Below are positions 31,061 to 62,639 of a DNA stretch of 64,000 bases, one piece after another (the stretch's first letter is position 1; every line of letters starts with the position of its first letter). The translations under genes and the position numbers were made by a program. Under the pieces are notes generated by a model. It worked only from the letters and a program-made list of their open reading frames with translations. It was not told the DNA's origin and did not search any database. This DNA comes from Gadus chalcogrammus (Eukaryota; Chordata; Actinopteri; Gadiformes; Gadidae): the NCBI RefSeq assembly GCF_026213295.1, contig NC_079414.1, positions 9,649,984 through 9,713,983 of the forward strand. The letters are read 5' to 3'.

Positions 31061-31888
31061 TTATTTTCTTAGCATGAATCTCTGAATGTCCAAGTTTAAA
31101 GAAGGGAGTTTTGCAGCTCTTTGAAGGAAGAAAAGAGGGTTAATAACACCAGTAAAAATGGAGAGAGATAAGATAATGCTGAATAAAAAAGAATGCTCTT
31201 TGATTTTTATGTAACCATACAGAAATAACAACACACCATATGGAAGTTTCTCTATAACAAAAATCCCAGTGGTGATCATAATGATGTTGAATGCTCTCCT
31301 CTTGGCATCATTGCCCTCTGCTCTCTGTCTCCTTCCTTGTGCTGGACCGGGCTGTTTCAGAGCCCACAGGACTGACACACAGCAGAACATCATCAAGGTA
31401 AGAAGAACTGTGTAAAATCCTTGATACACTTTAAACATAACACTCTGAATAAGAAAATAGTATATGAATGAAATACAAAAGCCCAGCGTGATAAACCAGA
31501 CCACACAGCAACAAATTATTTTATACCTGAGTAGTTTGTACCTGAGAAAGATCAAAGGGTGAACCACAGCCAAATAGCGTTCCACACAAATACATCCCTG
31601 AAACAATGGGCGAGCTATGTTTTGGAAAACTAGGAAAAAGCTGCTTACGGTCAAAAACACTTGAAGATGCTTCCCAATTACATAAAAAAGACAAAAGAAG
31701 CAAATCAAAATGTCAGAGACGGCCAGGTTAAGGCAGTAGAACTCTGAAGTTATGGTCTCCAGGCCTCCTCTGACAATCAGCAACAGGGTGTAGATGTTGA
31801 TGGGGGTAACCAGTAGCAGCGCTGTGACAGAGGCAGCATACAGGACATCAGGACCTCCTGATGTTGAGGAATTTAGACTGTGGTTCAT
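31061..31888 (-). CDS. Intact rhodopsin-like (class A) orphan GPCR, array copy 4
   Basis: A single coding exon of 275 codons from ATG at 31886-31888 to a stop at 31061-31063. The N-terminus has two N-glycosylation sequons (Asn2, Asn6). Seven hydrophobic segments lie at about 15-39, 51-73, 78-101, 122-146, 154-177, 199-224 and 235-258. Class A landmarks are visible: D59 in NLAVSD (TM2), C99 and C101, the E-R-Y triad at 103-105 in place of DRY, W131 in TM4, and N250-P251-LFF replacing NPxxY. The basic third loop is GRRQRAEGNDAKRR. The family is tandemly expanded here. I do not recognise a named receptor; it may sense an odour-like or small-molecule ligand, but that is only inference. A conserved splice acceptor (TTTACAG|AACACC) lies just upstream of the ATG. 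Confidence 0.85.
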   Translation of the reverse strand: MNHSLNSSTSGGPDVLYAASVTALLLVTPINIYTLLLIVRGGLETITSEFYCLNLAVSDILICFFCLFYVIGKHLQVFLTVSSFFLVFQNIARPLFQGCICVERYLAVVHPLIFLRYKLLRYKIICCCVVWFITLGFCISFIYYFLIQSVMFKVYQGFYTVLLTLMMFCCVSVLWALKQPGPAQGRRQRAEGNDAKRRAFNIIMITTGIFVIEKLPYGVLLFLYGYIKIKEHSFLFSIILSLSIFTGVINPLFFLQRAAKLPSLNLDIQRFMLRK

Positions 31889-32903: not shown

Positions 32904-33882
32904 CTCATCTCATCTCATTTTCTTCCGCTTATCCGGGGTCGGGTCGCGGGGGGAGCAGCTCAAGCTGGGGGCCCCAGACTTCCCTTTCCCGGGCCACATT
33001 GACCAACTCTGACGGGGGGATCCCGAGGCGTTCCCAGGCCAGTGTTGAGATATAATCTCTCCACCTAGTCCTGGGTCTTCCCCGAGGTCTCCTCCCCACT
33101 GGACGTGCCTGAAACACCTCCCAAGGAAGGCGCCCAGTGGGCATCCTTACCAGATGCCCGAACCACCTCAGCTGACTCCTTTCTAAGTAAAGGAGCAGCG
33201 GCTCTAATCCGAGTTCCTCACGGATGGCTGAGCTTCTCACCCTATCCCTAAGGGAGACGCCAACCACCCTTCTGAGAAAACTCATCTCGGCCGCTTGTAC
33301 CCGCGATCTCGTCCTTTCGGTCATCACCCAGCCCTCATGACCATAGGTGAGGATAGGAACGAAAATCGACCGGTAGATCGAGAGCTTTGCCTTGCGGCTC
33401 AGCTCTCTTTTCGTCACAACGGTGCGGTAAAGCGAACGCAATACCGCCCCCGCTGCTCCGATTCTCCGGCCAATCTCACGTTCCATAGTACCCTCACTCG
33501 CGAACAAGACCCCGAGGTACTTGAACTCCTTCACTTGGGCTAAGGACTCATTTCCTACCCGGAGTAAGCAATCCATCGGTTTCCTGCTAAGAGTCATGGC
33601 CTCAGATTTAGCGGTGCTGATCCTCATCCCAGCCGCTTCACACTCGGCCGCCAGCCGATCCAGTGAGTGCTGAAGGTCACAGGCCGATGATCCCATGAGG
33701 ACCACATCATCCGCAAAAAGCAGTGACGAGATCCTCAGACCACCGAACTGCAACCCCTCCCCACCACGACTACGCCTCGATATCCTGTCCATGTATATCA
33801 CAAACAGGATTGGTGACAAGGCGCAGCCCTGGCGGAGCCCAGCACCCACCGAGAACGAAACTGACTGGCTGCCGAGGACGCG
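32904..33882 (-). mobile_element. RTE/Rex3-type LINE, 5'-truncated, with 12-bp target duplication
   Basis: Perfect AATAAAAATTAT repeats flank it at 32892-32903 and 33883-33894. The 3' end on the - strand is a short ATGAG-type tail. An unbroken frame of 306 codons (33849-32929) carries reverse-transcriptase motifs GLRQGCALSPILFVIYMDRI and SSLLFADDVVLMGS (catalytic FADD), then KEFKYLGVLF, LTYGHEGW, QLRWFGHLVRMP and RTRWRDYI. The endonuclease half is absent. The clean duplication and open frame suggest a fairly young, dead-on-arrival copy. Same family as 10963-12560. Confidence 0.92.
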
Positions 33883-36564: not shown

Positions 36565-38715
36565 GACTTTAGACTTTAGACTTTATTGTCCCCAAGGGGA
36601 AATCTTTCTTCACATCACAGTACATTACATATTTGGGCCGCACGCCGACAGACAATAGACAGAAACAAATACAGATCTACACAGATCTACATAAACATCT
36701 ACACAGAGTAGGACTGGGGGTGATTTATCCTGGCCTTTTATTGAGTGCTGTTATGGCTGCAGGCACCAGGCTTTTGCCGTAGCGAGCCCTCCTGCACAAC
36801 AGGGACCTATACCTGCGTCCAGAGGGCATGACAGTGAAGTGGCAGTTGAGAGGGTGAGTGTTGTCCAGTGCTATTGTGGATATAATTCGTGAGATGGCCT
36901 TTATATTGAGCTCTGACAGTGTGGGTGTGGGGAGACCAATTAATTTGGCAGCTATATTTGTGACACGTGTAAGTTTGACCCGGTTTTTGACAGTGAGCAT
37001 GTTAAAGAAGCAGGTGGAACAGTAGAGCAGAATGGGTTGGACAATACTTTGATATAACAGAAGGAGGAGATGGGGGGCAACATAGAGTTCTTTGAGTTTG
37101 CGGATGGCATACAGTCTTTGGTGGCTCCTTTTTTGAATGTCCGTTGTGTGCTGGTCGAAAGTGAGTTTATAGTCCAGAGTGAGTCCAAGGTATTTAAAGC
37201 TGTCAACTGTTTCTACTGTGTCATTGTTGATGATAGTGGGGGGCTGGGGAAATGGGTTACCTATTGTTATTTCTTTTGTTTTGGCTACATTGAGATGGAG
37301 GAAGTTATGTGTGCACCATTGGGAGAAGTGGGTGACAGTGTTGTGGTAATCTGATACAGAGTTATTGTCTGATAGGAGGGCGAGGATGGCAGTGTCATCA
37401 GAGTATTTGAGGAAGGTGGTGGTGTGGGAGGGGCTGGTGCAGTCATTGCTGTACAGGGTGTAGAGGAAAGGGCTAAGCACACAGCCCTGAGGGGCACCGG
37501 TGTTGGAGGTGAGTGTGGGTGATGTGGTTGTGCCTACCCGCTTGCCGTCTGTCACTGAGGAAGTTGTGCAGGAGATGGATCAGGATGGGTGGGGTGTTGA
37601 GGTGGTGAAGCTTCTGGATGAGCAGGTGTCTCTGGATGGTGTTGAAGGCGGAGCTGAAGTCCACGAATAGAATTTTGGCGAAATTGCCTGAGGAGTCCAG
37701 GTGCTGGAGGACAAGATGCAGCAGGCAGGCGACAGCGTCCTCTGTGACCCTTTTTTCCCTGTATGCAAATTGAAGGGGATCCAGATGAGGTTTGACGGAT
37801 GGAAGGATGGTCCTGAGCAGCAGTTTTTCGAAACATTTCATGATTATGGGTGTGAGGGCGATGGGGCGGTAGTGACTTGGTTCGGTGGGTCGTGGTTTTT
37901 TGGGTACCGGGATTATGGTTGCACTTTTCCAGAGGAGGGGTATTGTGGCTGTTAGGTATGCTTGGCAGAAGAGGGAGTGGGCGATTGGAGCCAGTTCTGT
38001 GGCACAGGTCTTCAGCACCCTTGCTGGGATGCCGTCGGGTCCTGGGGCCTTGGATGGGTTGCACCGGCTGAGCTGGTGGCGAACTTCCTCCACTGTGAAG
38101 GGAGCAGGCTCATTGGGGTCTATTGGGGGGAGAGCCTGCAGTGCTTGCATGCAGTCATTTGTAAAATCCTGTGAGTCAAACCGGTTGAAAAATGTGTTCA
38201 GTTCAGTGGGGAGAGCTGTGGTGTGTAATTTTGTTTTGCTGTGGGTGGGTTTGTAACCGGTGAGTGTGTTGACCATCTGAAAGGCTTATTTAGTGTTCAT
38301 GCTGCTAAACTTGTGCTCCAGGTTGTTTTTGAACTGAATTTTGGCCATGAGGATTTTATTTTTAATATTACGGTTTGCAGATTTGAGACCAGCTGAGTCC
38401 TTGAGCCTGAAGGCTGTGTGCTTGCTTTCAGGCATTTTTTTTATTTCAGAGGTAATCCAGGGTTTTGAGTTGGTATTTTTTTATTGCTTTCACTGGTATG
38501 GTGGTGTGTATGCAGAAGTTGATGTAATCGGATATGGCAGTGACTTTGGAATTCAAATCTCCGTCAAAGATAGTCCAGTCGGTGCATGCCAGGGAACCTT
38601 GGAGCTGTGCAGTGGAGTCCTCCGACCATTGTAGGGCGCTGTAGGACTGTGGGTGGAGGCGTTTTAGTACTTGTTTGTACAGCGGAAGTAAGCAGATGAC
38701 GTTGATGATATATGG
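36565..38715 (-). mobile_element. CR1/Rex1-group LINE, 3' two thirds
   Basis: The - strand carries a reverse transcriptase in two overlapping frames. 38276-37473 has NPSKAPGPDGIPARVLK, HYRPIALTPIIMKCFEKLL and ILFVDFSSAFNTIQ. 37555-36725 has NTGAPQGCVLSPFLY, FLKYSDDTAILALL (catalytic Y-S-D-D), SFKYLGLTLD and PSGRRYRSLLCRRARYGKSL. A frameshift near 37550 and a nonsense codon upstream of 38276 (NTK*AFQMV) inactivate it. The frame is still recognisable to about 38700. The 3' tail is a run of TAAAGTC units (seen on + as 36567-36590). 5'-truncated; no target duplication found. Confidence 0.85.
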
Positions 38716-39245: not shown

Positions 39246-39538
39246 GCTGTCACACCAAATTTGTACCGGGTGCCCAATTTCTATAGCCTGGTTCTACCAG
39301 ACTCTCGTACTTCACTTCATTTCATTTCATTTGTACAGAGAGTCTGGACCTAATCAATTGACAAACGTTAACTCACTTGAAGGCGGGTGTCTGTTGAAGT
39401 TTAAAATGATTGGATCTGCCCAGTGCCACTCTGGATCTGCCATAACCAATCGCTAACGTTTGGTTGTGACGTGTGTCATGCGCCGGGAATCACGCGCAGG
39501 TTGTACACAAACCAAACACCTTGCGCGTGTGCACGAAA

Positions 39539-39710
39539 ATGTCCGTCAACGACAGCTGCAGGTTTTGTTCGTCGAATTTAATTTATCAGGGAAAAAATGC
39601 ACATTGTAAATCAACTACCGACCTACAACAACAACTCAAACTGGCGTACGACTTTATCGTCATTGTTCTCAGACATGCCCTCTGGTCGCTGATTGGTGGC
39701 CGCTGTGGCG
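39539..39710 (+). pseudogene. Truncated first exon of a C-x2-C (zinc-finger-like) transposon protein
   Basis: ATG at 39539 begins MSVNDSCRFCSSNLIYQGKN and continues AHCKSTTDLQQQLKLAYDF before the frame runs into the nested palindrome at 39711. Cys7, Cys10 and Cys23 with His22 suggest a zinc-binding N-terminus. The C-R-x-C...L...G pattern recalls N-termini of large fish transposon proteins (possibly Academ-like), but this is from memory and unproven. Only the start of the gene survives. Confidence 0.4.
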
Positions 39711-40239
39711 GTGTCACGTTAAAATTGTACCGGGGGTGAAAATTGTACCGGCCTACGTCATCAGTTGTTTACATCTTGACAACCTGCCTGCCAACAGACG
39801 ACGCGATCGTCTGTTGCCGGGCAGGTTGCAAAAAACATTCGGCGCATGTTTCCAAAAGACGAAGTAACATAATACAGATAACGGATCGCTAGATAAAACT
39901 TGTTTTTACTTTATATTTGTATTGTATTTAATTGTTTAATCGAATAGCAACAGACGACGCGATCGTCTGTTGCCGGGAAACGGGCGATCGCGTCAAATGA
40001 CGTAGGAAGGTTCTTGTACATTCCTACGTGATTTGACGCGATCGCCTCGATTAAACAATTAAATACAATACAAATATAAAGTAAAAACAAGTGTTATCTA
40101 GCGATCCGTTATCTGTATTATGTTATTTCGTCTTTTGGAAACATGAGCCGAATGTGGTTGGCAGGTTGTCAAGATGTAAACAACTGATGACGTAGGCCGG
40201 TACAATTTTCGCCCCCGGTACAATTTTAACGTGACAGCG
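39711..40239. mobile_element. Near-palindromic foldback element (about 530 bp)
   Basis: The left end GTGTCACGTTAAAATTGTAC and right end GTACAATTTTAACGTGACAG read as reverse complements almost to the centre (about 40013), where TGACGTAGGAAGG and CATTCCTACGTGATTTGACG pair. The left arm has two extra AACAGACGACGCGATCGTCTGT hairpins that the right arm lacks. Related in arm sequence to 39246-41504 and 44138-44877. No coding sequence. Confidence 0.9.
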
Positions 40240-40701
40240 GCACCAGAAAACCAAATTACATACAGCAGGTCCAGACCTAGTACTGAAGGGAAATTCAAAT
40301 TGAGCGGAAGTACTTAGGCGGGCGGAGCCAGGCTACAATTTGTACCGGGTATGTCATCCTTACGTAATCCATTCCAAACCTGCCTGGCAACAGACGATCG
40401 CGTCAACGGACAATCGCGTCGAATGATGTGGGAAGGTTCAAGAACATTCGCGAACTCGTTCATTGAGCGCGACAAGACAGATAACACTTATTTTACAAAT
40501 TACATTTATTAGAGTTCCTAACTTTATATCTGTATTGTATTGTATTTATCTATTTCCCTACACAGTAATAGCTACATGTTATGGGGATAATGTGAATTTA
40601 AAGTGTATCATAGTCTAGCTAGCTTGTGGTAATTGAATTTCCTTAATTTAATTTAGAGAATAGATTATAGGTAATAAATAGATAGATAGATAATAGATAA
40701 T

Positions 40702-41179
40702 AATAATACATTTAATTTAGAGGCGCCTTTCAAGACACCCAAGGTCACCTTACAGAGCATATAGTCATCATAAATCGTTTAATAAAAAGAAAAAAAAAAA
40801 ATTGTGGAAAATATAAGTAAATAAATAAACATAATAAATAAAAAATAAATTAAACAAAAACAAGACAAAACAAAACAAACAAACAATCACATTAGAGGTT
40901 GTGTGCGAGTTTGAACAGGTGAGTTTTGAGTTGTGACTTGAAGGTTGTAAGGGTGTCTGACTGTTTTATGTGTGGGGGGAGGGAGTTCCAGAGCCTGGGT
41001 GCTGAACAGCTGAATGACCGGGCACCCATTGTAGTGAGTCGTGATGTGGAGATACATAGTAGTCCAGCAGAGGTTGAGCGGAGGGAGCGGGAGGGAGTGT
41101 ATTCTTGGAGGAGGTTGCAGAGGTAACTGGGGGCTAGGTTGTGGAGAGCTTTGTAGGTGAGGAGTAGGGTTTTGTATTG
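40702..41179 (-). mobile_element. 5'-truncated L2 LINE inserted in a (GATA)n tract
   Basis: The - strand encodes the L2 reverse-transcriptase C-terminus: KTLLLTYKALHNLAPSYLCN, SAPRLWNSLPPHIKQSDTLT and TFKSQLKTHLFKLAHNL-stop. It is followed by a 3' tail (AAGGTGACCTTGGGTGTCTT, GAAAGGCGCC and ATTATTATT). The same host sequence without this insertion is at 44450-44550. Confidence 0.88.
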
Positions 41180-41596
41180 GATAGATAGATAGATGGGTAG
41201 ATAGGTGAGCAGGCATTTACTAACTGGTAAATGTTTTTTATTATTATTATACTCAGTTTACTAGCTAAATTCGATTAAACAATTAAATGCAATACAAATA
41301 TAAAGTAAAAACAAGTGTTATCTAGCGATCCGTTATCTGTATTATGTTATTTCGTCTTTGGCAACATGAGCGGGAATGTTTTTTTAAACCTGCCTGGCAA
41401 CGGACAACCCCTTACGTAATCTGTTGTTCGTTGCCTGGCAACGGACAACTGATTACGTACCCGGTACAAATTTGGGACCCGGTACAAATTTGGTGTGACA
41501 CAGCCCCTATAGATTTTATTTTTTTCAACAATCCACATCATCATAATATTTCAATTAGGCAAATCGTTTGCATTTTTCTGCTGTGTTTAGCCTACT

Positions 41597-42411
41597 GGGG
41601 CCGGTTGCACCAACTGGGCGTAAGCCTGGTCGTAACTACGCCTGGTCGTAACTTGGCGTTCTAAGTCCAACCTAACCGTTACGCCAGTTGCACCAACTGG
41701 GCTTAGCGTTCTTTTCACTAAGACCAGGCGTAAATCCTACGCCTGGTCAGGGGCAGGCGTAGAGTTGAAATTCCAGGCTGTTTCTATAGCAATTACATCC
41801 AATCCAATGCAGCTTTACCACCATCCTTGCAACGCTTCGCTAAACTGCATTTCAAAGCACAGCCGGCGATATGATCAGTGTTCACAGATCGACTGCCTGT
41901 CGGGAAGATATCGCTGGCCGATTAGTCCGTTCTCAACTTATAATCAGTTGTGAATGTTGTTTTAACTATGTTTATATGTTTTATATAGGCCGACACATTA
42001 AACAAATCTCTCCTACAGAACCATTCCCATCTAAATGCCTGCTCGTCGTAAACCAGACATTACAAATACATATTTTAATTATATTCGTTTGCAGAGTTTT
42101 ATTGTTAGGCATTAACACAATTGATGAATGACAATGAGTGAACGAATGAATTATTTATTTCGGTGTCCAACAGCATGTCAAGTAAAATAGTAAACAGCTG
42201 TTGTCACGAGGTATCCTAGCAACGCGGTGATATGCGCATACCATGGAACATTCACATGGCCGCGCATGGCTAAGACCGGGCGTAGTTAAGACCAGGCGTA
42301 AGTCCCGTTGGTGCAACCGGCGTTAGTTCCATTCTAACGCCAGGTCGTAACTAAGACCTACTTAGCAGTTACGACCAGGCTTAGTTACGCCCAGTTGGTG
42401 CAACCGGCCCC
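41597..42411. mobile_element. GGGGCCGGTTGCACC MITE, copy 1
   Basis: Terminal repeats GGGGCCGGTTGCACCAACTG (41597) and its complement ending at 42411. Sub-terminal TACGCCTGGTC units repeat on both strands. 815 bp, no coding capacity. Copy 2 follows in opposite orientation. Confidence 0.88.
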
Positions 42412-42460
42412 TGGGGCCGGTTGCACCAACTGGGCGTAACTAAGCCCTGGGGGCCCCCCT

Positions 42461-43942
42461 GGGGCCGGTTGCACCAACTGGGCGTAACTAAGCCTGGTCG
42501 TAACTGCTAAGTAGGTCTTAAGGCTGATTTATGCTCAGTTACGTAAGCGTAAGCGCAAGCGCAAGAGGCCCTTGCGCGCCCTTGCGCACCCCTTGCGCGA
42601 CTTCTCACGTCTTGCGTGCGTCGGGCGATTTTTCTAGACTTGCGTCATTTTTTACGTAAGCTTTTACGCGAGCCGCCCAGCCTGCAAGGCTGTGATTGGT
42701 CTGCTGGTCTGGTTACTACTTCCTGTCTGGAGTATCACCCGGCAGGCTCATATACAAAATCATTAACGTGAAGTGAAGTTAACTTTGCTGCCAACACATT
42801 ATTTCGTTTTAAAATGTAGAGAGATATGCACATTTATACAACCCCAATGATCAACAACTTCATCACCCCTGTTCCTCTGTCTGTTGCCATCATTCACTGT
42901 GTATGGGGAGAACACGATCTGGCACATAAACAAACCAACGACTCCCACAGACAAAGACGTCATTCTTGAGGTCGTCTTCAACGAAAAACTTTCCTCCACA
43001 TATTACTCCACCTACTGTTCTGGCGGTAAATTGCTTGGCAACACGCGCAACCTAAAAGGGAGCATGAATTGCTTTGAGTAAATTTTGCGCAACAACGTAA
43101 CACCAACGCTGAAGCATGCAGCCGCCTTTAGTTACGACCTGGCGTTAGAATGGAACTAACGCCGGTTGCACCAACGGGACTTACGACTGGTCTCAACTAC
43201 GCCCGGTCTTAGCCATGCGCGGCCATGTGAATGTTCCATGTAATGCGCATATCACCGCGTTGCTAGGATACCTCGTGACAACAGCTGTTTACTATTTTAC
43301 TTGACATGCTGTTGGACACCGAAATAAATAATTCATTCGTTCACTCATTGTCATTCATCAATTGTGTTAATGCCTAACAATAAAACACTGCAAATGAATA
43401 TAATTAAAATATGTATTTGTAATGTCTGGTTTACGACGAGCAGGCATTTAGACGGGAATGGTTCTTTTTGACAGAAGCAATGCATTGAACATTATCAAAT
43501 GACACGGAGCTAAATTGAGTTGTTTTGAGACTGTAGGAGAGTTTTGCTTAATTTGTCGGCCTATATAAAACATATAAACATAGTTAAAACAACATTCGCA
43601 ACTGATTATAAGTTGAGAACGGACTAATCGGCCAGCGATATCTTCCCGACAGGCAGTCGATCTGTGAACACTGATCATATCGCCGGCTGTGCTTTGAAAT
43701 GCAGTTTAGTGAAGCATACTGAGCAGTTGCATTGGATTGGATGTAATTGCTATAGAAACAGCCTGGAATTTCAACTCTACGCCTGCCCCTGACCAGGCGT
43801 AGGATTTACGCCTGGTCTTAGTGAAAAGAACGCTAAGCCCAGTTGGTGCAACCGGCGTAACGGTTAGGTTGGACTTAGAACGCCAAGTTACGACCAGGCG
43901 TAGTTACGACCAGGCTTACGCCCAGTTGGTGCAACCGGCCCC
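42461..43942. mobile_element. GGGGCCGGTTGCACC MITE, copy 2 (inverted), with an insertion
   Basis: Reverse-complement copy of 41597-42411 (for example GATATCTTCCCGACAGGCAG near 43637), interrupted at 42521-43127. An extra half end (GGGGCCGGTTGCACCAACTG) lies at about 42413-42450 between the two copies. It has a segment of about 90 bp at 43465-43555 that copy 1 lacks. Confidence 0.88.
42521..43127. mobile_element. Harbinger-type non-autonomous element with TTA duplication
   Basis: Starts AGGCTGATTTATGCTCAGTT and ends TGAAGCATGCAGCCGCCT, flanked by TTA at 42518-42520 and 43128-43130. MITE copy 1 shows the empty site (complement of GTAGGTCTTAGTTACG, near 42345-42360). A 3-bp TTA/TAA duplication fits PIF/Harbinger. 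The left end is GC-rich with repeated GCGCAAG motifs. Confidence 0.82.
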
Positions 43943-44137
43943 TGGTGTGTAAGCTTATGTTGCAGTGCCGACCTACCATAGTAGGCCTACGTCAAAATAG
44001 CATCACCAACTGCGCTATCCGCTAGTGCACTTAGACCAGTCAGTCAGTTGCACGACTGCTTTATCTATCTGTAAGATAGCACCGTGTATCATTTGCGCGG
44101 GATCATGCCTCTGCTTTTCACCGACACGCTTCTCAGG

Positions 44138-44469
44138 GCGCTGTCACACCAAATTTGTACCGGGTGCCAAATTTGTACCGGGTACGTAATCAGTTGTCCG
44201 TTGCCAGGCAACGAACAACAGATTACGTAAGGGGTTGTCCGTTGCCAGGCAGGTTTCTAAAAACATTCCCGCTCATGTTGCCAAAGACGAAATAACATAA
44301 TACAGATAACGGATCGCTAGAAAACACTTGTTTTTACTTTATATTTGTATTGCATTTAATTGTTCAATCGAATTTAGCTAGTAAACTGAGTGTTTAAAGT
44401 GTATCATAGTCTAGCTAGCTTGTGTTAACTTAATTTCCTTCATTTAAATTAGAGAATAGATTATAGGTA

Positions 44470-44526
<57 letters not shown>

Positions 44527-44877
44527 GGGTAGATAGGTGAGCAGGCATTTACTAATTTACTAACTAATTACTTGTTTATTATTATTATTCACGTTATCCC
44601 CATAACATTTAGCTATAACTGTGTAGGGAAATAGATAAATAGAATACAATACAAATATAAAGTTAGGAACGCTAATAAATGTAATTTGTAAAATCTGTCT
44701 TGTCGCACTCAATGAACGAATGTTCTTGAAACTTCCCACATCATTCGACGCGATCGTCCGTTGCCAGGCAACGGACGACGCGATCGTCTGTTGCCAGGCA
44801 GATTTGGAATGGATTACGTAAGGATGACGTACCCGGTACAAATTTGGCACCCGATACAAATATGGTGTGACAGCGCC
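44138..44877. mobile_element. Long inverted-arm element, copy 2 (uninterrupted)
   Basis: Ends GGCGCTGTCACACCAAATTT and its complement at 44864-44877. The arms match copy 1 (39246-41504) with left and right swapped, while the (GATA)n-containing middle (44395-44550) keeps the same + strand orientation as in copy 1. 740 bp, no coding sequence. Confidence 0.87.
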
Positions 44878-45273
44878 AGTTTAGTGGCGCGAGTTTTCTG
44901 CGGGGGAAAATCTGCGTTGCACCGGGTGCAAACTAGCAACGATACGTGTGTCGTGTAAAAGGGAATTGCGCTGGGTGCATTGCCCATTGCGTCTAAAACA
45001 GATGAGATTTTCAAATGCAAAAAGCACACATAGTTGTCCACGATACTTGTGGTTGTGGACAATTATTATTGTCCACAATACTTGTGGACAATATGTTTTG
45101 TTCAAATATATTTGTAATAACAGTACAAACAACCTACATCACAACATGCATTTACAAACAATAGAATAGGCCTACAATGCAATAATCCGAAGCCTCAGAT
45201 GGGAGTTCGCCCTGCATCTCTCTAAAGGTTCTCAAGGAGAAGTACACTGCATGGCTAAAGGCAGGAGTTCTAA
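44878..45273. other. Spacer, possibly part of a Harbinger element
   Basis: Contains repeated GTCCAC(A/G)ATACTTGTGG units near 45037-45090. No gene recognised. Confidence 0.4.
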
Positions 45274-45698
45274 GGCCCCGTCCACACGAAGCCGAAACAG
45301 GCGAAACCGTTACGGTTTCGATCTATCCGGTTTCGCAGTATCTCCGTAAAGACGGAGTCAAGCGAAACCGGGTAGATCTGTAGAAACACTGTAGTACACA
45401 TTCCAGTCCCATAAGGGGCGCTGCTTCTGCTACAGAAATCCTTATTGTTGTGAGTTCTGAGACTTCGCGGGCTTAACAGTCATTGGCTAGAGGGTCGAGG
45501 GGTGGGGCGATGACGTCATGGTTTACGGTTTCAGTCGGTTTCAGGCGTCCACACTAATCCAAAACGAAACCGGGTAGATTTGGTTTCAGAAGTTTGCGGT
45601 TTCGGTCGGCGGATTCGCCGGCTTCGTGTGGACGGAAGGCCGAACCGTACAAGACCTTTGCGGTTTCGCCATGAAATCGGCTTTGTGTGGACGGGGCC
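45274..45698. mobile_element. Harbinger-type MITE with GGCCCCGTCCACAC ends and TAA duplication
   Basis: GGCCCCGTCCACAC at 45274-45287 and its complement GTGTGGACGGGGCC at 45685-45698, flanked by TAA (45271-45273 and 45699-45701). Sub-terminal GCGAAACCG motifs recur. Length 425 bp, non-coding. Overlapping short frames are by-products. Confidence 0.93.
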
Positions 45699-45862
45699 TA
45701 ATACACCTCTGTTGTGTTCCTGAGGGCAACTGTCCCCCAATAAACCAAAAGCCTTTGTTAGCCAGATGGTAATCTATTGATTGAAGCACCTCAAGAAGTC
45801 ATGGATTTGGGTTTGCGGCAGGGGTTTTCGGCCTACAACAGAGACAACGCAGCGATATCAAC

Positions 45863-46048
45863 ATGAGTAGTTCTAACTGGAGAGATATTGAAATCCGCGA
45901 GCTGCTGACCATCATGGGAGAGAAGATAATGCAGTCTTATTTAACAAAGACGGGGAAAGATGGTGCGATCTACAAGGAAGTACCAGAGGAACTTTCCTTA
46001 GGAGCCTTTTTTCTGGATAAAAAAACAACTGGTCAGCAAAATAAATAA
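45863..46048 (+). pseudogene. Myb/SANT-like (Harbinger-associated) exon fragment
   Basis: ATG at 45863 begins MSSSNWRDIEIRELLTIMGE and continues KIMQSYLTKTGKDGAIYKEV. The W..-.E...LL pattern with a downstream Y.EV resembles the first helices of the Myb/SANT-like DNA-binding proteins carried by Harbinger transposons or domesticated from them. The frame ends at 46048 before the expected remainder. Could be a transposon remnant or a host exon. Confidence 0.45.
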
Positions 46049-46202
46049 TATGTTGGCTTTTTTGCACTTGTAAATAGTTAATCACGTTTGTAGCCTACAC
46101 TCAGAAGTATACTCATTCTTTCATGCAAGTGTCTTGAATCATGAAAAAATCAAAACATTCAGAGTATTGTGGCAACCCGGCCCTCGCACAACGGCCCTGT
46201 AA

Positions 46203-46767
46203 GTAGACCCCGAAGCCGCCGCCAGCCGCCGCCATTTGCGCCATTTCGAATTTCAGCCGCCGCCAGCCAATAATTGTATAAGCCAAAATAAGCCGCCATC
46301 TAATGAACTTTGGCTGAGCCAGCTAGAATTATTAGTATCAAGTAATAATTCCATAACTTAGTAGGGCTTTGACTCCGAATGAAGTATTGATTAGACAGCG
46401 ATTTATTAGAAACCTAATAAACCGTTGGATCACGCAAGACCGGTAACCATAGCAACGCCGGTAAACAAACCTCGCAAAAATCCAATTCAGGTCTTACTGA
46501 AGGCATTTAATGGTCAAAATATTATTAATAAATATTGGAATATATTTGAATATTAATATTAATAAACAAACAAACTTCAAATATGATTTTTGGGCAAAAG
46601 TCAAAGCCCTATCACATAGAGACATACACACGAAAAATGTCAGCCATTTGTAGCCATGAAAAATTTGGCGGCTGCAGCAGCCATTTAGGTTTTGGCTGAG
46701 CCGGCTAGCCAGCCAATAACTTCATCAGCCAGCCATTATTCTCAAAACAAATGGCTTCGGGGTCTAC
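46203..46767. mobile_element. GTAGACCCCGAAGCC inverted-repeat element with a nested element
   Basis: GTAGACCCCGAAGCC at 46203-46217 pairs with GGCTTCGGGGTCTAC at 46753-46767. Within it, TAGGGCTTTGACT (about 46372) pairs with AGTCAAAGCCCTA (ends 46611), marking a second element of about 240 bp rich in AATATT. GCC-rich (Ser/Ala-like GCCGCC) sub-ends. No coding sequence. Confidence 0.75.
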
Positions 46768-46796
46768 CTGGAAGCCCAGGGGGCAGATGGTGAAGG

Positions 46797-47374
46797 TAGC
46801 CTGGCACCGCCCATCTACCTACTTCCGCTCAATTTTCATTTCACTTCAGTACTAGGTCTGGGTCTGCTTAATGTAAATGTTCCATGTTCCATGTTCCATG
46901 TAAACCAGATTTCTGGCGGTCCAATCAGCGAACAGAGGGAGTGGCTGAGGTCGCGCGCCAGCTTCAGTTGTAGTCAGAGGAAGACAATGGAGAAGGATAC
47001 GAGAGAAGCTATTCGGTCTGTTGTGGGATCGCTGCCGAAAATCGATCAATTAAAGCCGGAGCAAGAACAAGCTTTGCAGAGTTTTGTTGGTGGCAGTGAT
47101 GTTATGGCGCTTCTCCCCACCGGGTTCGGGAAAAGTTTGATATTCCAGCTGGCTCCGTTAGTGGTGAAGGAGCCTGTCCCGTCGCATGACATACGTCAAG
47201 ACTAAACGTTATGCGATTGGGTTATGGCAGATCCAGAGTGGCACTGGGCAGATCCAATCATTTTAAAACTTCTACAGACACCCGCCTCCAAGTGAGTGAA
47301 CGTTTGTCAATTGAGCAGTTCCAGACCTTCTGTACAAATGAAACGAAGTACGATGGTCTGGTAGAAACAGGCTA
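46797..47374. mobile_element. TAGCCTGG family element B (carries RecQ-like helicase exon)
   Basis: Ends TAGCCTGGCACCGCCC and ...GAAACAGGCTA with perfect 9-bp duplications TGGTGAAGG at 46788-46796 and 47375-47383. Its left end equals the right end of element A, and its right end equals the left end of element A (both complemented). It is therefore an internally deleted copy keeping the opposite gene. Confidence 0.88.
46987..47205 (+). pseudogene. Truncated RecQ-like helicase first exon inside a DNA transposon
   Basis: ATG at 46987 begins MEKDTREAIRSVVGSLPKID. QLKPEQEQALQSFVGGSDV resembles the helicase motif 0 'R--Q--A', and ALLPTGFGKSLIFQLAPLVV is a RecQ-type Walker A (motif I, G-F-G-K-S). 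The frame ends at TAA 47203-47205, where the transposon's terminal sequence begins. Motifs Ia-VI are missing, so no activity is possible. A possible donor (GTGAAG) follows the Walker A. Confidence 0.65.
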
Positions 47375-47383
47375 TGGTGAAGG

Positions 47384-61817: not shown

Positions 61818-62639
61818 CTATTTTATTATTTTAAGGTCAGTTAAAGAAGGTAGTTTCTTTGCTCTCAGAAGGTAGAATATCGGTGATAACAGACCACAAA
61901 ACATCAATACAATTAGCGCAACATTATCTGCCGGTGTATCAAGGTTTATATTATTGTCACCTTGCAGATATATAAGCACAACATATGTAAGGTAGTTAAT
62001 TAAAGCAACCAAAATGGTCATAAAAATGATGTTGAATGCTCTCCTCTTGACTTCATAGCCCTCTGCTCTCTGTCTCCTCCCTTCTCCTGGACCGGGCTGT
62101 TTCAGAGCCCACAGGACTGACACACAGCAGAACAACATCAAGGAAAATACAACTGTGTAAAATCCTTGATACACTTTATATATGAGACGTATTATTTGTG
62201 GAAATAAGGTACAGGAAACACAAAAGGCCAGCGTGAGTAACCAGATGACAGAGCAACACATTATTTTATACCTGAGTAGTTTGTACCTGAGAAAGGTAAC
62301 AGGGTGGACCACAGCCAAATAGCGTTCCACACAAATACATCCCTGAAACAATGGGCGACAGATGTCTAGGAAACCCATGAAAAATGTGACTACTAGGTGG
62401 AGTTTGGGAGCTCCTAGGTGTGCATGCATGACATGAAATATACTCTGGAAGCAAATCAATATGTCAGAGAGGGCCAGGTTGAGGCAGTAGAAGTCTGAAG
62501 TTATGGTCTCCAGGCCTCCTCTGGCTATCAGCAACAGGACGTAGAAGTTGATGGGGGGAACCAGTAGTAGTGTAAAAACAGAGGCCGCATACAGGACCTC
62601 AGGATGCTCCAATGTTGAGGAATTGACACTGTGATTCAT
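61818..62639 (-). CDS. Intact rhodopsin-like (class A) orphan GPCR, array copy 7
   Basis: A single coding exon of 273 codons, ATG at 62637-62639, TAG at 61818-61820. It starts MNHSVNSSTLEHPEVLYAAS with two N-glycosylation sequons. Seven hydrophobic segments lie at about 15-39, 51-72, 80-104, 125-147, 158-181, 201-225 and 239-259. Landmarks are D59 (NLALSD, TM2), the E-R-Y triad at 105-107, W133 (TM4), a basic third loop GRRQRAEGYEVKRR, and S252-P253-IFY in place of NPxxY. TM6 lacks the usual proline (NYLTYV), unlike the copy at 31061 (LPYG). That suggests a separate subfamily together with the remnants at 27960 and 50160. It resembles no named receptor that I can identify. Confidence 0.87.
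   Translation of the reverse strand: MNHSVNSSTLEHPEVLYAASVFTLLLVPPINFYVLLLIARGGLETITSDFYCLNLALSDILICFQSIFHVMHAHLGAPKLHLVVTFFMGFLDICRPLFQGCICVERYLAVVHPVTFLRYKLLRYKIMCCSVIWLLTLAFCVSCTLFPQIIRLIYKVYQGFYTVVFSLMLFCCVSVLWALKQPGPGEGRRQRAEGYEVKRRAFNIIFMTILVALINYLTYVVLIYLQGDNNINLDTPADNVALIVLMFCGLLSPIFYLLRAKKLPSLTDLKIIK

Follow-up and report, generated by a model that had tools for sequence, protein, structure and literature searches.

Two short elements with shared ends and their families

The window analysed here is a stretch of 64,000 nucleotides from Gadus chalcogrammus (contig NC_079414.1 of assembly GCF_026213295.1, positions 9,649,984 to 9,713,983 of the forward strand). It contains two short elements, termed A and B, which respectively keep the start of a protein with a C-x2-C motif and the start of a RecQ-type helicase, and the group of DNA transposons to which they belong is the subject of this analysis (Table 1). 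They are oppositely oriented and have both ends in common: the left end of A is 86% identical to reversed B over 205 bases (E = 1e-63), its right end is 85% identical to B over 80 bases (E = 1e-21), and the true terminal inverted repeat is confined to the outermost 7 or 8 bases, TAGCCTGG. Both are flanked by 9-bp target duplications, which are exact on the two flanks of B and differ by one mismatch in A; among 200,000 random pairs of 9-mers from the window the chance of exact agreement was 0.00004 and that of agreement within one mismatch 0.00018. Furthermore, the target of A is uninterrupted in three paralogues within the window (from 44133, and in reverse from 44884 and 41512), each of which has the nine bases once; A is inserted in a larger inverted-repeat element whose relatives in the window keep the site intact. 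The coordinates, shared ends, orientation and duplications of the two elements, as well as the two coding starts, had been proposed in an earlier note made from the sequence alone, and all of these are borne out. From about base 331 on, A corresponds to the helicase end found in long copies elsewhere in the genome, so that its remnant of the C-x2-C protein amounts to about 25 residues, which are genuine. The 72-codon helicase start kept by B matches the Pfam DEAD family (4.5e-6) and is 64% identical to a helicase of 590 residues from Engraulis (P0003).

Table 1. Elements A and B and their component features, in positions of the window
Feature	Position	Strand	Description
Element A	39284..40335	+	523-bp non-autonomous family member with a nested insertion; ends and length compared with 7 sister copies
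Element B	46797..47374	-	opposite to A; one of a family of short copies (about 580 bp); 16 other copies compared
Left 9-bp target duplication copy of A	39275..39283	.	CAATTTCTA; target paralogues have a single copy
Right duplication copy of A	40336..40344	.	CAATTTGTA
Left duplication copy of B	46788..46796	.	TGGTGAAGG
Right duplication copy of B	47375..47383	.	TGGTGAAGG
Transposase end of A	39284..39614	+	inverted repeat CCAGACTCTC/GAGAGTCTGG; matches B, L017, L024-L027 and L029
Helicase end of A	40237..40335	-	matches helicase end of B, 80 bases at 85%
Transposase end of B	47177..47374	-	subterminal inverted repeat CCAGACC/GGTCTGG; match to end of A
Second-gene start in A	39539..39613	+	MSVNDSCRFCSSNLIYQGKNAHCKS; N-terminus of the DUF6589 protein; longer exon in L024-L027 and L029
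RecQ-type helicase gene start in B	46987..47184	+	motif ALLPTGFGKSLIFQ; reads inward from helicase end
Foreign palindromic element nested in A	39711..40236	.	GCG at 39708-39710 and 40237-40239

Comparisons within the genome place each element in a family of its own. In a search with the first 417 bases of A, all 40 of the 914 candidates that were scored are 98-100% identical to it. All seven other copies taken from the best eight loci are 523 bp long, with 9-bp duplications that are exact in six and carry one mismatch in the seventh. A is longer than these sisters because a palindromic element of 526 bp, missing from all seven, is nested inside it. The interior of this nested element resembles the arms of elements at 41251-41506 and 44136-44391. 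About 39246-41505 and 44137-44877 of the window are occupied by related elements of the inverted-repeat type, the ends of which resemble TGTCACACCAAATTTGTACCGGG; the first of them is the host of A.

The B-type set comprises 17 matches to the helicase start, beginning at residue 10-12 and ending at residue 64-66, one of which is B itself. The other 16 all start with the helicase end, and their duplications are exact in ten and have one mismatch in two, when the best shift of up to 4 bases is allowed at each end. These copies are only 87.5-91.6% identical to B, which suggests that the B family is likely to be older than the A family. Thus, A and B are members of two subfamilies, each of which is a multi-copy short family.

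Long copies and their two genes

Long copies with like ends and 9-bp repeats, which the earlier note had expected at 5-15 kb, are present in the same genome. The element at C7:3261453-3275987 spans 14,535 bp, has TAGCCTG ends and is flanked on both sides by an exact GAGAGTCAT. In the two stretches scanned, no TAG...CTA pair other than its boundaries has a 9-mer that agrees to within a single mismatch; when TAG and CTA are not required, four position pairs, including the chosen one, share an exact 9-mer. The element at C4:23280058-23289628, bounded where its likeness to a copy on C15 stops, spans 9,571 bp, with ends TAGTCTGG/GAGACTA and an exact GTCAAAAAG on both sides. Both elements contain two convergent genes, namely a RecQ-family helicase and a protein with a DUF6589 region. 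The C15 sister of the C4 element (C15:27911982-27920036; 8,055 bp, 97-99.8% alike) retains an open DUF6589 exon of 620 residues (Pfam 7.4e-47) and two open helicase exons. A fourth element, on C11, is 2,796 bp long, with ends TAGCCTGG/CCAGGCTA and an exact duplication GTCTTGACC; it combines a decayed helicase with MSLNDSCRFCLSDLRVQG reading from the other end, a start shared with A.

The large parent with two convergent genes that the earlier note had postulated is thereby found in the C7 and C4 elements, and the helicase is bounded by the ends in question in these two, in the C11 element and in the B-type copies; at the majority of the remaining long loci, the far end was either not found or not sought. 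The C11 element is the one copy with both ends that has the helicase alone of the two genes, as a deletion derivative would. The accompanying proposal that A and B are internal-deletion derivatives stands as to the type of the parent. They are not one-off deletions, and the idea that each is a lone deletion copy of one and the same parent is rejected, both being multi-copy and of two subfamilies.

The arrangement of some copies is complex. Two nearly equally scoring mirror-image copies of 14.5 kb occur at C7:3.26 Mb and C7:3.67 Mb, with the helicase match broken in one of them, and may reflect either a duplication in inverted orientation or an error of assembly. In positions 1-111 of L028 (C164:21247-21357) a helicase-bearing element ends beside GTCCAGACC and a piece of the helicase end of another copy. 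The junction facing this one is present at C106, C85, C17 and C74, and hence the helicase-bearing copies are likely to nest in one another. At C106:89301-91579, GTCCAGACC is not found on both sides, one flank being different.

The affinities of the helicase are clear from the Engraulis protein P0003, which matches 37 PDB sequences at E = 1e-15 or better. Of these, 34 are named as members of the RecQ family (WRN, BLM, RecQ, Q1, Q4 and Q5), and the remaining three are named only "ATP-dependent DNA helicase". The C7, C4, C15 and C11 elements each enclose a RecQ-family helicase, and P0003 has at least 75 matches in the organism's own genome (74 of 273 candidates scored). The nearest proteins found are from bony fishes (Engraulis and Mugilogobius) and lancelets.

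The second gene adjoins the long helicase copies in convergent orientation, and the C-terminus of its product matches the Pfam family DUF6589 (PF20231) at 5.5e-11, the scores of this family ranging from that value to 7.4e-47. Five longer proteins of the family were found. One of these, P0006 from a lancelet, starts CCRFCGSNLRLNG, a motif shared with SCRFCSSNLIYQG in A. The N-terminal exon of the C7 element is 36% identical to the exon of the family of A over 55 residues (1.5e-5) and also matches residues 13-132 of P0006 (1.8e-10). In other copies (L024-L027 and L029) the A-type coding start extends, still in frame, beyond 60 residues. A protein search with the C-x2-C start of A itself yielded one candidate, with none at E = 1. 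The N-terminal exon of the C4/C15 family (MNDVCRLCGDNF...FICGSC) resembles zf-AD at 0.0043, below the Pfam cut-off. Acidic residues are conserved in the blocks DNLD, GD[QR]L[TS] and LDL..EH in the alignment rows covering them, and P0009 has a zinc-finger insert (C355, C360, H374 and H379); these acids, together with the insert, would fit a split DDE core. The DUF6589 protein is likely to be the transposase. Among the stretches of IMG/VR, 81 fit a DUF6589 pattern and none is a relative; the search of phage records found no DUF6589. The literature searched, which excluded the founding AcademH paper, contained no link between DUF6589 (PF20231) and transposons, a link that may already be known to the author of that paper.

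The two genes were found together from either direction. When 71 of 87 DUF6589 candidates were scored, 16 of the 18 loci listed were accompanied on the opposite strand by a close-lying helicase match, which is weak at C9. Conversely, among 18 distinct fetched loci with the C-terminal part of the helicase, DUF6589 occurs on the other strand at 13, within the downstream 0.9-1.5 kb that was fetched, and at two more (C7:3.26 and 3.67 Mb) at a distance of about 5 kb; the remaining three are the C11 deletion copy and the loci on C14 and C12. The same pairing is seen in the C4/C15 family, whose proteins reach about 25-42% identity where they align. Stretches of the DUF6589 genes at C26:1031181-1032467 and C15:19684096-19685378 are up to 76-88% identical to an Engraulis protein and contain stops.

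Affiliation of the group and neighbouring elements

Taken together, these observations suggest that A and B are very probably short non-autonomous members of a group of two-gene transposons encoding a helicase and a DUF6589 protein, the likely transposase, with AcademH as the most likely identity of the group. AcademH was reportedly named by Kojima in 2020 from animals and fungi. According to the published account, it encodes a helicase and generates duplications of 9 or 10 bp (PMC10045372). The assignment rests on this combination of a helicase with 9-bp duplications, which are exact in the C7, C4 and C11 elements and in B, in six of the seven A-type and ten of the 16 B-type copies, and not clean on C15. 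Accordingly, the elements most likely represent a new member of a group already named, AcademH, and not a new kind of transposon. No difference from AcademH was found in that account; the second protein here combines Pfam DUF6589 with a zf-AD-like N-terminus. In contrast, AcademX, of the same superfamily, is described with duplications of 3 or 4 bp and a nuclease in place of the helicase, the difference in duplication length being tied to that between helicase and nuclease (PMC10045372); it is rejected on account of the 9-bp duplications seen here. Of the affiliations guessed at in the earlier note, Academ is thus favoured by both the helicase and the duplications, and Mutator is not, no MULE domain having been detected in P0004-P0009 at E = 0.1.

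Several observations weigh against this reading. The comparison with AcademH covered its published description. AlphaFold models of the DUF6589 protein reach a mean predicted local distance difference test score of 31.9 and 38.4 (from alignments only 5 and 8 sequences deep) and give no evidence of a DDE-core fold. The top PDB match of the 72-residue piece from B is a TAL effector chain (4.5e-6, with no stretch passing alone), the RecQ chains coming next. The pairing of the genes has exceptions: the DUF6589 loci at C26:1.03 Mb and C15:19.68 Mb are without a helicase match, the helicase loci at C14:28.29 and C12:22.35 Mb are without a DUF6589 match, and the unfetched helicase matches at C8:21.6, C8:24.5, C13:24.43, C13:24.45, C11:20.6 and C6:10.3 Mb have no listed DUF6589 match. 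Nor are the linked loci independent events, since the small contigs contribute many near duplicates and the pair on C7 consists of mirror copies. As for the boundaries, about 2.6 kb of the interior of the C7 element lies outside the sequence read, no clean duplication was found for the 8,055-bp C15 copy, and the transposase end was not found in the flanks fetched for the copies at C7:15 kb, C106, C17, C74 and C85. A matching duplication was likewise not found in four of the 16 B-type copies, in three of which the alignment stops short of the other end.

A new superfamily, namely a two-gene transposon with a RecQ-type helicase and 9-bp duplications that is unrelated to Academ or any named group, would agree with the transposase candidate matching only a family of unknown function above the cut-off, and with the lack of a DUF6589-transposon link in the literature searched. 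It is nevertheless distinctly unlikely, given that the joint presence of a helicase and duplications of 9 or 10 bp is what has been reported for AcademH (PMC10045372). A Mutator-like element with a RecQ helicase captured from the host is very improbable: the published account does give duplications of 4 to 10 bp for MuDR and IS256 (PMC10045372), but no MULE domain was detected by Pfam in P0004-P0009 at E = 0.1, and Mutator is rejected for this reason. The helicase and DUF6589 also occur together in the divergent C4/C15 family, and therefore any capture would have been old and shared. Least probable of all is a helicase-bearing Kolobok, as Kolobok duplications are TTAA, of 4 bp, and those found here consist of nine varied bases, on which ground KolobokH is rejected. 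KolobokH and Kolobok-1_CCri resemble the present group in carrying a RecQ helicase in a DNA transposon, that of Kolobok-1_CCri being in the complementary strand; they belong to fungi or a red alga, KolobokH being restricted to fungi and having its helicase downstream of the transposase (PMC9587614).

Apart from A and B, the window contains several further features. A large inverted-repeat element at 41597-43942, which encloses other repeats, has arms that start GCCGGTTGCACCAACTGGGCGTAA and are complementary at 97-99% over separate pieces. A short element at 45274-45698, with ends GGCCCCGTCCACACGAAGCC and GGCTTTGTGTGGACGGGGCC and TAA on both flanks, is presumably Harbinger-like by its look. Directly to the left of B lies an element (46203-46767) with ends GTAGACCCCGAAGCC and GGCTTCGGGGTCTAC. 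Open frames for reverse transcriptases (Pfam RVT_1) occur at 32929-33849 and 36725-38276, and two for rhodopsin-family receptors (Pfam 7tm_1) at 31061-31888 and 61818-62639.

Subterminal palindrome and proposed route of transposition

For the AcademH-like group the following route may be envisaged. The DUF6589 protein would bind the element ends through its zf-AD-like N-terminus and cut the target strands 9 bases apart, and the helicase would open the DNA at the ends or at the target, in the course of transfer or of repair. Having only remnants of the genes, A and B would have been moved in trans by the proteins of long copies.

In A, B and the C11, C4 and C15 elements, an inverted repeat in the transposase end (CCAGACC/GGTCTGG) starts at base 14; the arms in A, CCAGACTCTC and GAGAGTCTGG, have a matched change in both. 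The long C7 element is without the palindrome at base 14. When each end was shuffled 500 times, an arm as long (or of 7 bases) was obtained in 5 shuffles for A, 68 for B, 74 for C11, 26 for C15, 28 for C4 and 83 for C7, the last with other arms at another place. The palindromes of single ends are thus weakly significant or not at all, and their interest lies in the shared position, which was noticed post hoc. The helicase end of C7 has a 12-base inverted repeat of its own, matched in none of 500 shuffles and not seen in the other ends. A bold and unlikely extension of the above route has the transposase end melted into a hairpin by the RecQ helicase that the element itself encodes; the DUF6589 transposase would recognise this hairpin in single-stranded form. 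To our knowledge, no such helicase-fed route has been described for cut-and-paste elements. If this reading of the hairpin were true, DUF6589 would define a whole class of helicase-partnered transposases.

On the whole, two short repeats have led to the description of a two-gene transposon group whose long copies, short families and clean duplications are all seen within one genome. A Pfam family of unknown function, DUF6589, is tied to helicase-bearing transposons, which could give the whole annotated family a function. It also becomes testable why a DNA transposon would have a RecQ-type helicase of its own, and whether this helicase sets the 9-bp stagger.

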